Part shown: piece after piece, positions 12,449 to 47,716 of the stretch
How positions within the stretch are numbered: the first letter of the stretch is position 1
Layout: the number at the start of each line of letters is the position of its first letter
Assembly: GCA_019120575.1 (NCBI GenBank)
Contig: DWUU01000007.1
Location: forward strand, 1 to 61,437
Length of the DNA: 61,437 nt
Source: Candidatus Mediterraneibacter quadrami
GTDB lineage: Bacteria; Bacillota; Clostridia; Lachnospirales; Lachnospiraceae
Direction of reading: 5' to 3'
The notes under the pieces: generated by a model
The model's input: the letters and a program-made list of their open reading frames with translations, nothing else
Told to the model about the DNA's origin: nothing
Databases searched by the model: none
Translations under genes and position numbers: made by a program

Positions 12449-14053
12449 ATGGCAAATATTGATTTGACTCAGTATGGCATTACAGGAACTACGGAAATCG
12501 TTCACAATCCTTCCTATGAGATGTTATTCGAGGAGGAGACAAACCCGAATCTTGAAGGCTTTGACAAGGGTCAGGAGAGTGAACTCGGTGCAGTCAACGT
12601 TATGACAGGTATCTACACCGGTCGTTCACCGAAAGATAAATATATCGTTATGGATGAGAATTCCAAAGACACTGTATGGTGGACAACTGAGGAATATCCG
12701 AACGACAACCATCCTGCAACAAAAGAAGCTTGGGATTCAGTAAAAGACCTTGCGATCAAAACACTCTCCAATAAGAGACTGTTCGTTGTTGACGCATTCT
12801 GCGGCGCTAACAAAGACACACGTATGGCGATCCGTTTCATCGTGGAAGTTGCATGGCAGGCACACTTCGTAACGAACATGTTCATCCGTCCGACAGCAGA
12901 AGAGCTTGAGAACTTCGTACCGGACTTCGTTGTTTACAACGCTTCCAAAGCGAAAGTAGAGAACTACAAAGAGCTTGGCCTGAGATCTGAGACAGCGGTT
13001 ATGTTCAACATCACAAGCCGCGAGCAGGTGATCGCGAACACATGGTACGGCGGAGAGATGAAGAAAGGTATGTTCTCCATGATGAACTACTACCTGCCGC
13101 TCAAGGGCATCGCTTCCATGCACTGTTCAGCAAACACAGACATGAACGGCGAGAATACGGCAATCTTCTTCGGACTTTCCGGAACAGGTAAGACAACACT
13201 TTCCACAGACCCGAAGAGACTCCTCATCGGTGATGACGAGCACGGCTGGGATGACAACGGTATCTTCAACTTCGAGGGAGGATGCTACGCAAAGGTTATC
13301 GACCTTGACAAAGAGTCCGAGCCGGATATCTACAACGCGATCAAGAGAAACGCGCTTCTTGAGAACGTAACACTTGACGCAGAAGGAAAGGTCGACTTTA
13401 CAGATAAGAGCGTGACAGAGAATACACGTGTATCCTACCCGATTGACCACATCGAGAAGATTGTTCGTCCGGTATCCGCAGCTCCGGCAGCGAAGAACGT
13501 GATCTTCCTGTCAGCTGATGCATTCGGCGTACTTCCGCCGGTATCCGTACTTACACCGGAGCAGACAGAGTACTACTTCCTGTCAGGATTCACAGCAAAA
13601 CTTGCAGGTACAGAGCGCGGCATCACAGAGCCGACACCGACATTCTCCGCATGCTTCGGACAGGCATTCCTTGAGCTTCATCCGACAAAATATGCTGAGG
13701 AGCTCGTTAAGAGAATGAAAGAGAGCGGAGCAAAAGCATACCTCGTAAACACAGGATGGAACGGAACAGGAAAACGTATCTCCATCAAAGATACACGCGG
13801 TATCATCGACGCGATCTTAAGCGGAGCGATCCTTGACGCACCGACAAAGACGATCCCGCACTTCAACTTCGAAGTTCCGACAGAGCTTCCGGGAGTTGAT
13901 CCGGCGATCCTTGACCCGAGAGATACATATGCAGACGCTTCCGAGTGGGAGGCTAAGGCAAATGACCTGGCTGCAAGATTCGTTAAGAACTTTAAGAAAT
14001 ACGAGAGCAACGAACTTGGAAAAGCACTCGTTGCAGCTGGTCCGCAGGCATAA
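12449..14053 (+). CDS. pckA: Phosphoenolpyruvate carboxykinase (ATP)
   Basis: 534 residues, full length. It interconverts oxaloacetate plus ATP with phosphoenolpyruvate, CO2 and ADP; in gut anaerobes it often runs in the carboxylating direction. The P-loop GLSGTGKTT is at residues 242-250 with Lys248, [12 protein letters not shown] binds substrate, and the metal-binding GDDEHGWD follows. Codon choice differs from most neighbours (few G/C-ending rare choices, many aca, gga and ctt codons), as in groEL, which suggests high expression. It is monocistronic: own promoter in front and a very long hairpin immediately behind. Confidence 0.97.
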
Positions 14054-14058
14054 GATAC

Positions 14059-14190
14059 GGGCATAAGAGATAATAACAAGCCTGTGATACGGCTAAATAC
14101 AGTCAGGAAAAGGAAGAACTCGTTTCACTCAGACAACTTCCTTTTCCTGACTGATGCCGCATCACAGGCTTGTTATTATCTCTTATGCCC
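14059..14190 (+). repeat. 132-nt near-perfect long hairpin directly after pckA
   Basis: Outer arms 14059-14088 and 14161-14190 are complementary over 30 of 30 bases (gggcataagagataataaca... ). Inner arms 14100-14116 and 14137-14153 are complementary over 17 of 17 (cagtcaggaaaaggaag). Between them a small internal loop can still pair CGGC with GCCG. The apical loop is 20 bases (14117-14136). It begins five bases after the pckA stop, and part of the arm (GGCATAAGA) is also directly repeated across the stop codon at 14047-14055. There is no T-run, so it is not an ordinary terminator. It could stabilise the pckA mRNA, act as a processed RNA, or be a small palindromic mobile element. Confidence 0.85.
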
Positions 14191-14431
14191 CTGCACAGTC
14201 GCCGCCCGCATTACATCCCGCCTGTTCCGAAAGGTGCATCAAAGTGGCGGTATGCGTCAGATTTGTTACGCTTATCCGTTAGAAAGTACCTTCCAGGTGA
14301 TTACCAAGTTTACAGAAAATGGGATGAAATCGGGACTCAGACGACAAGGTTCAGATTTCTTCTGGTTAGTATGAGTGTTTGTTGAAGGATGGAGCTGTGG
14401 CAGAAGAAAGGATTAATGATCGGATGAGACA
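14191..14431. other. Non-coding spacer between two long hairpins
   Basis: No convincing gene. Short open frames at 14084-14374 and 14170-14385 run partly through the first hairpin, lack binding sites and have no recognisable domain. I see no tRNA or promoter of good quality here. Confidence 0.5.
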
Positions 14432-14617
14432 GCGGAAAAAGAGGATACTGCATAAGCTGTGCATCGACATGGAGCGTTCCGAATACACCTCGTTCTCCAT
14501 GTTAGCGGTGTTAAAATACGAGTTCCAATGGACGAGTATTTTAATATCGCGTTACATGGATTCGAGGGGATGAGGTGAAGCGGGTCGGCACAGCGCTGCA
14601 GTATCCTCTTTTTCCGC
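14432..14617 (+). repeat. 186-nt imperfect long hairpin between pckA and sigK
   Basis: Outer arms 14432-14452 and 14597-14617 are complementary over 21 of 21 bases (gcggaaaaagaggatactgc...). Pairing continues inward: gctgtgc (14456-14462) with gcacagc (14588-14594), cgac with gtcg, cacctc (14486-14491) with gaggtg (14572-14577), ccatgt with acatgg, gcg with cgc, and ttaaaatac (14511-14519) with gtattttaa (14536-14544). The whole segment thus folds into one rod with small bulges. It is not similar in sequence to the first hairpin. It lies downstream of both pckA and the convergent sigK, without a clear T-run in either direction. Confidence 0.75.
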
Positions 14618-14680
14618 GTGTATTGTTTGATTTTTATATTTTTTCTGCTACAGCGGCATCTGTTAAACAAACACGAATTT

Positions 14681-15307
14681 TCATTCTTCTTCGAAATGCT
14701 CTCTCAGTTTCTCGACTGCGCTCTTCTCGATCCGTGAGACATAAGAGCGGGAGATCCCAAGCTGCCTTGCGATTTCCCGCTGTGTGTATTCTTCGCTGTT
14801 ATACAACCCGTAACGCATTTTTAAAACGAGCTTTTCTCTCTGAGAAAGCCCGCTTTCAACTTTTTCATAGAGTTTCTGGATGTTCTCCCTGAGATCAATC
14901 TTTTCAGGGATGTCGCATTCGTCGGCTTCGATGATGTCGTAGAGCCGGATCTCGTTGCCTTCCCGGTCAGTGCCGATGGGCTCGTAGAGGGAGATTTCCT
15001 TTGCGGATTTCTTCCGGGAACGGAAGTGCATGAGGATTTCGTTTTCGATGCAGCGCGATGCGTAGGCGGCCAGCCGGTTTCCTTTGCCGGGGTTGAAGGT
15101 CGTGACCGCTTTGATGAGGCCGATCGTTCCGATGGAGAGCAGGTCCTCCGGGTCTTCGTCGAGATTCTGATATTTTTTCATGACATGGGCTACGAGCCGC
15201 AGATTCCGTTCGATCAGGATGTGTTTCGCTTCAAGGCTGCCCTCCGTGTATTTCTGGATGTAATACTTTTCTTCCGGGGGAGTGAGTGGATTGGGAAATG
15301 ATTTCAC
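14681..15307 (-). CDS. sigK: RNA polymerase sporulation sigma factor SigK
   Basis: 208 residues starting at GTG (15307) with AGAGGTG ahead. SigK directs late mother-cell transcription during spore formation (coat and cortex maturation). Region 2 is clear: HNLRLVAH-like (RNLRLVAHVMKKY), the DLLSIGTIGLIKAV polymerase-binding part and AAYASRCIENEILMHFR; region 4 has the HTH REIARQLGISRSYVSRIEKSA. The N-terminus FPNPLTPPEEKYYIQKY lacks a long pro-sequence. The gene is continuous, with no skin-type prophage inserted. It converges on pckA and diverges from the yifB operon. Confidence 0.93.
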   Translation of the reverse strand: MKSFPNPLTPPEEKYYIQKYTEGSLEAKHILIERNLRLVAHVMKKYQNLDEDPEDLLSIGTIGLIKAVTTFNPGKGNRLAAYASRCIENEILMHFRSRKKSAKEISLYEPIGTDREGNEIRLYDIIEADECDIPEKIDLRENIQKLYEKVESGLSQREKLVLKMRYGLYNSEEYTQREIARQLGISRSYVSRIEKSAVEKLREHFEEE

Positions 15308-47430: not shown

Positions 47431-47483
47431 CAGGTGCCGTCCGGTTAGGAGATAACCGGGCCGCAGGCCAGATCCGGCATACA

Positions 47484-47672
47484 TTTAAAAGACACAGCCT
47501 GTAATATATCCGGCAGGAACCGGCACAGGCTGCGAGGAAGACAGGTGAGAATCCTGCACAATACCCGTTGCTGTATTAGCGGAGCGGCGTTTCGAAGGAA
47601 GCCACTGGGAGAGAGGCCCGGGAAGGCAGAGACGTCCGCGGTGAGGCTTGAGTCAGAATATTCGCTTTTAAA
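47484..47672 (+). promoter_or_regulatory. Adenosylcobalamin riboswitch ahead of cbiM
   Basis: P1 is formed by tttaaaag (47484-47491) with cttttaaa (47665-47672). P2 pairs cagcctgt (47495-47502) with acaggctg (47525-47532). The conserved core follows: GGAAGACAGGTGAGAATCCTGCAC, a segment near 47535-47559; then CCCGTTGCTGTATTAGCGG; GGAAGCCACTGGGAG (47596 onward); GGAAGGC...GTCCGCGGTGA; and the B12 box GAGTCAGAATATTCGC (47650-47665). It controls cbiM and probably the whole downstream operon. No terminator is evident before the ATG at 47717, so control may act on translation initiation or through an upstream stop I cannot see. Confidence 0.92.
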
Positions 47673-47716
47673 TGGATCTGGGGATTACGGGAATATGATC
47701 AAAAGGAGAAAAGAAA

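Follow-up and report, generated by a model that had tools for sequence, protein, structure and literature searches.

A perfect hairpin downstream of pckA is part of a dispersed structured repeat whose ends sit at stop codons in Mediterraneibacter

Introduction

Why should a bacterial gene be followed by a hairpin with far longer perfect arms than a terminator needs? The case arises in Candidatus Mediterraneibacter quadrami, in a stretch of 61,437 nucleotides (contig DWUU01000007.1, positions 1 to 61,437; the window). A first-pass annotation of the window, made from the letters alone, described a 132-nt hairpin right after pckA. It argued that such arms decay quickly unless maintained, and that the hairpin is therefore either recent, as a MITE-like insertion or duplication, or selected as RNA. 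We compared the locus with related genomes, designated here by G numbers, and with individual loci fetched from them, designated by L numbers.

Results

The hairpin itself is as described. Positions 14059-14088 and 14161-14190 are perfectly complementary over 30 bp, extending to 35 bp at 97%, and 14100-14116 pairs with 14137-14153 in a second perfect stem of 17 bp. The surrounding 211 nt (14020-14230) fold with an MFE of -102.2 kcal/mol (z -13.07), and none of 200 shuffles does as well. No T-run follows the 3' base of the hairpin, again as first reported. When all perfect stems of 12 bp or more (loops up to 300) in the 61-kb window are ranked, the two come first and third. Second place goes to a 21-bp stem (14432/14617) that is also part of this element, and the next in the window has only 15 bp. 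The longest stem outside the element, a perfect 15-bp stem with an 11-nt loop at 1609-1649, is perhaps an ordinary terminator.

The 132 nt are not the full feature. Homology in 40 fetched loci runs from 14059 to about 14680, and intact copies, which measure about 740 bp in relatives, start about 120 nt further left. The window thus holds a copy of a bipartite A+B repeat at ~14059-14679 with its left end missing. By stem and folding computation and orthologue comparison, the reported hairpin (14059..14190) is the inner hairpin, or tip, of module A. The 3' part of module A follows at 14191..14320 (right limit approximate) and in intact copies pairs with the left stretch absent from the window. 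Module B folds as a single 300-nt hairpin at 14375..14674 (MFE -158.9 kcal/mol). It contains the perfect 21-bp stem (14432-14452/14597-14617), about 240 nt past the reported hairpin, and its outer arms extend to 14375-14674. The conserved, covarying core of module B lies at 14458..14594 on the plus strand and scores 158.6 bits with a covariance model, R1, that was built from 30 sequences including this one.

The element is closely bordered by genes on both sides. Its right terminal inverted repeat, CAAACACGAATT (14668..14679, minus strand), lies 1 base from the stop codon (14681-14683) of a convergent ORF of 208 aa (14681..15307, minus strand), named sigK in the first-pass annotation. The left flanking ORF (12449..14053, plus strand, 534 aa) is pckA in the same naming. 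Just past its stop, orthologue comparison places at 14054..14058 the junction of the deletion that took the element's left end.

Several assignments for the element were tried and rejected. Coding content was rejected: Pfam gives no match up to E = 1 for three ORFs of 64, 96 and 71 aa in the window, and the 64-aa frame, which lies inside module B, is broken, by eye, in L047. Phage or plasmid origin was rejected because 14059-14680 is unmatched in phage and plasmid collections. Module A is not a hidden copy of B, since R1 with filters off gives it nothing better than E = 0.19. The element in the window matches no Rfam family, and neither does the element at eight loci searched, where the sole match above gathering threshold is a separate Clostridiales-1 RNA (RF01699, 140.9 bits) at L073:676-844, close to a B module. 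Elsewhere in the window, Rfam places a cobalamin riboswitch at 47478-47683 (RF00174, 62.4 bits).

The first-pass annotation had proposed a sequence search of the same genome and its relatives, and the two gave different answers. Searched against its own genome, the 211-nt query returns no match but itself. Of 61 genomes searched (own, 36 of the same genus and 24 of the same order), 23 match at E <= 0.001, several of these via the pckA end alone; none of the 24 same-order genomes matches. G036 yields 18 matches, G004 15, G002 14 and G035 13. With the element of L042 as query, 36/58 genus genomes match at E <= 1e-5, some by the B core alone. R1 matches 42/58, with 57 hits in the complete genome G028, 50 in G005, 34 in G004, 31 in G036 and 29 in G066; the own genome has 5. 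Among 299 genomes drawn from the family, R1 finds the own genome and 3 of the 298 others, with 3-5 hits each (E 5.5e-11 to 9.9e-7), and loop sequences are closely similar in two of these three, the two with an alignment. The suggestion of a MITE-like multi-copy element is therefore borne out in relatives, where copies are dispersed over many unrelated loci. In the genus Mediterraneibacter the element is a strongly structured repeat, apparently non-coding and present at dispersed loci.

Copies vary in form. Two-module copies (A left, B right) are mostly 736-757 bp, with a few shorter ones down to 618, and module A also occurs alone in a form of about 370 bp. In G028, B units are divergent (minus left, plus right) in 17 of 18 fetched loci (L139-L156); L156 shows only one. 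One locus (L121, L122, L123, L047, L053 and L124) carries different element forms in different relatives, with L122 resembling a B(minus)/A hybrid, so a given site changes its element type over time. An IS630-family element at L140:1556-2956 is nested inside a single repeat copy, and IS630 was rejected as mobiliser.

Both modules show the marks of a maintained fold. The B-core alignment holds 30 cores out of 42 references (mean column identity 83%), and 20 of the 35 pairs in its consensus fold show two-sided compensatory change. Across 31 copies of module A, 36 of 66 strand-symmetric pairs occur with more than one Watson-Crick type. Covariation across repeat copies supports maintained stems. 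Wobble pairs read on the plus strand amount to 37 G-T against 13 A-C cells in B and 25 against 50 in A, the cells not being independent. These counts suggest, and only suggest, that an RNA of A would lie on the minus strand and an RNA of B on the plus strand. The two strands of the conserved internal loop of B, GUUCCGAAUAC and GAGGUARAGC (within 14458-14594), may resemble the T-loop and D-loop of tRNA.

The perfection of the 30-bp arm is a separate matter, on which the orthologous loci of G019, G025 and G031 bear. The right arm reads TTG-AATTATCTCTAATCCCC in G019 and G031, TTG-AACTATCTCTAATACCC in G025 and TTGTTATTATCTCTTATGCCC in the window. Relative to G019 and G031, the window arm has one inserted base and three substitutions, and all four changes bring it to full complementarity with the left arm. 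Only the window copy has a perfect 30-bp arm, and the 17-bp stem is already perfect in all three orthologues. Template switching within a quasipalindrome should leave changes that restore arm complementarity. Because all four changes do so, arm perfection is a local correction and not the mark of a recent insertion: a later, lineage-specific correction of template-switch type acting on an imperfect arm explains it better than youth or selection as RNA.

The left boundary also argues against recency. The deletion junction is common to the window and G031, and G019 and G025 retain about 90 nt more there, element-like by eye. The window copy is a left-truncated insertion that three relatives share. 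Of the earlier alternative, recent or RNA-selected, the MITE-like character and the maintenance of stems (many pairs covary) hold, and recency does not. A direct repeat of GGCATAAGA across the pckA stop, previously seen as a possible footprint of how the hairpin arose, does exist; it sits at the deletion junction and is broken in G031 (GGCGTAAGA), and it is not an insertion footprint.

Could the hairpin be a regulatory RNA or terminator of pckA, selected as RNA? It folds strongly, and it is kept at all four orthologous loci compared, as such a role would have it. However, the same sequence follows many unrelated genes, and in G017 a plain terminator, identified by eye, lies between pckA and the sigma-factor gene. 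Because copies follow so many unrelated genes, we regard a pckA-specific role as highly improbable.

Where, then, do copies sit? The element's termini are imperfect inverted repeats, AATTCGTGTTTG...CAAACACGAATT, as in MITEs. For the AATTCG end family, 107 pattern matches reduce to 92 outer ends and, after merging, to 68 roughly independent ones. In a scripted count, 52 of the 68 follow a long ORF (within 200 nt), and 48 of these 52 have an in-frame stop at -6..+2 from the first base of the repeat. Checking removed two rows, L033 (an inner end of A) and L074 (second family); this leaves 66 ends, 50 of them following a long ORF, with the stop -6..+2 nt away in 46. The 16 of 68 ends with no long ORF ending within 200 nt may include chance matches to the short pattern. 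Both ends were found for 28 copies. In 14 of them both are flush at stops, in 12 only one is and in 2 neither; the 14 are an undercount because some copies were paired with an inner end of A. For a second end family, AATTTGTAGTTGTTG in G028, 34 of 49 ends follow an ORF, 24 with the stop within -6..+2 and 6 more within -12..-8; the 15 ends without a long ORF nearby may again include chance matches. Copy ends therefore coincide with the stops of neighbouring genes, and often these form a convergent pair.

Sites with and without an element make this clearer. For two sites we searched with the joined flanks, fetched 20 listed places and compared them with filled loci; the sample is not random, since a site counted only when a single contig carried both flanks. 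At site 2, the spacer is ordinary in six genomes, 56-129 nt long and with a terminator-like hairpin in each (by eye). In six others, an element of 292-738 nt fills the interval stop to stop and no spacer remains; one of the six, L124, carries a member of a related family whose ends read AATCTGAGTTTGTC. At site 1, gene ends overlap in 4 genomes, spacers of 54-157 nt separate them in 4, and elements of 387-739 nt in 3. The best-supported conclusion is that, between convergent genes, the element occupies the position otherwise taken by spacer and terminator.

These observations bear on whether the repeat is an ordinary MITE, mobilised by a transposase, whose surviving copies lie chiefly in the 3' regions of genes and touch stops because spacer DNA was lost later. 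Terminal inverted repeats, dispersed non-coding copies and intergenic positions all suit this explanation. However, no constant target-site duplication is seen by eye in the listed flanks of either end family (TA precedes AATTTG at 25 of 49 ends in G028). Copies in G028 that share 94-97% identity with the closest other copy (17 compared) are for the most part already at stops or no more than about 12 nt away, and the six filled site-2 loci retain no spacer at all. We consider an ordinary MITE possible but doubtful.

The complete genome G028 suggests one candidate for the copying machinery. All six of its Rpn (Transposase_31) relatives, 93-100% identical to the query, adjoin elements or sit between them. 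Each of these six near-identical genes (L139, L141-L143, L159, L163, L165, L167-L169) has a repeat on both sides: the upstream one is whole or partial, the downstream one whole, partial or a remnant. The modules might then be targets of the nuclease, with copies made by template switching at gene ends. Escherichia coli Rpn proteins are reported to promote RecA-independent recombination, and primer-template switching is proposed for the joining (PMC5350276), which fits such a scheme. The same paper gives RpnA little, if any, sequence specificity (PMC5350276), which does not. A PF04754 search of seven copy-bearing relatives matches in G028, G066, G035 and G005; G036, G004 and G074 carry copies without a match. 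The own genome also has no PF04754 match; a protein query finds in it a relative of 44% identity, and in G004 only a broken fragment. The Rpn-like loci scanned in G000, G004, G005, G035 and G066 have no B core in their vicinity, and Rpn may be a passenger. The link between Rpn and element insertion, seen in G028 only (6/6 genes), is suggestive, and we think the full scheme rather unlikely.

Discussion

The hairpin after pckA is the remaining module A tip of a dispersed repeat, which is probably non-autonomous and replaces spacers and terminators between genes. Such an element would spread into gene ends and take over as a bidirectional 3' end, or terminator, for both flanking genes. Its stems would be kept by selection on the fold and re-perfected by template switching during replication; more speculatively, an Rpn-type nuclease might promote the copying. 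That the element terminates transcription is inferred. A scan for intrinsic terminators (G+C-rich stem plus T-run) over 14000-14750 found one consensus match against 0.7 expected by chance, and so nothing terminator-like beyond chance. Module B has gone from two of the four orthologous loci, those of G019 and G031, and is thus dispensable there.

A bolder reading sees an undescribed class of mobile element, defined by stop-to-stop replacement of spacer and terminator between convergent genes, two divergent giant hairpins with a conserved internal-loop motif, and template-switch copying by an Rpn-type nuclease. We hold this tentatively and judge it improbable as a whole. Our literature search, which was of limited reach and so gives weak evidence of absence, found no description of the repeat family.

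The locus matters for several reasons. It establishes a family of large structured repeats in gut bacteria, one without an Rfam match here. Ordinary transposition does not readily account for how closely the ends fit stop codons, and because one site exists in both filled and ordinary versions, that fit and the idea of a mobile terminator can be tested directly. The arm itself is a natural case in which template-switch correction accounts for perfection better than youth or selection as RNA.

Known systems share some of these properties. Bacterial MITEs have terminal inverted repeats, no evident coding capacity and many copies, with mobilisation presumed to occur in trans. The element resembles them in the first three respects, but it has a large conserved internal structure, ends at stop codons and shows, by eye, no constant target duplication. 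REP/BIME sequences with RAYT are palindromic units in opposite orientations in intergenic DNA, as are the units here, which differ in measuring ~300-370 nt; this comparison is by description only. With Rpn / YhgA-like Transposase_31 genes the likeness is that one genome, G028, has six beside elements, but flanking structured repeats are not among the features described for those genes in the available part of PMC5350276.

The nearest analogue we found is the pneumococcal BOX repeat. BOX, RUP and SPRITE are small interspersed structured repeats, over-represented between convergent genes, and in 36 cases a BOX copy reaches over the very 3' end of a gene and supplies its stop codon, with no strong sign that the gene is truncated (PMC3049150). 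By description, the two share interspersed structured repeats, a place in spacers of convergent genes and contact with stop codons. They differ in genus and size. The repeat described here has two giant hairpin modules with a covarying core, and a comparison of sites shows ordinary spacers replaced from stop to stop.
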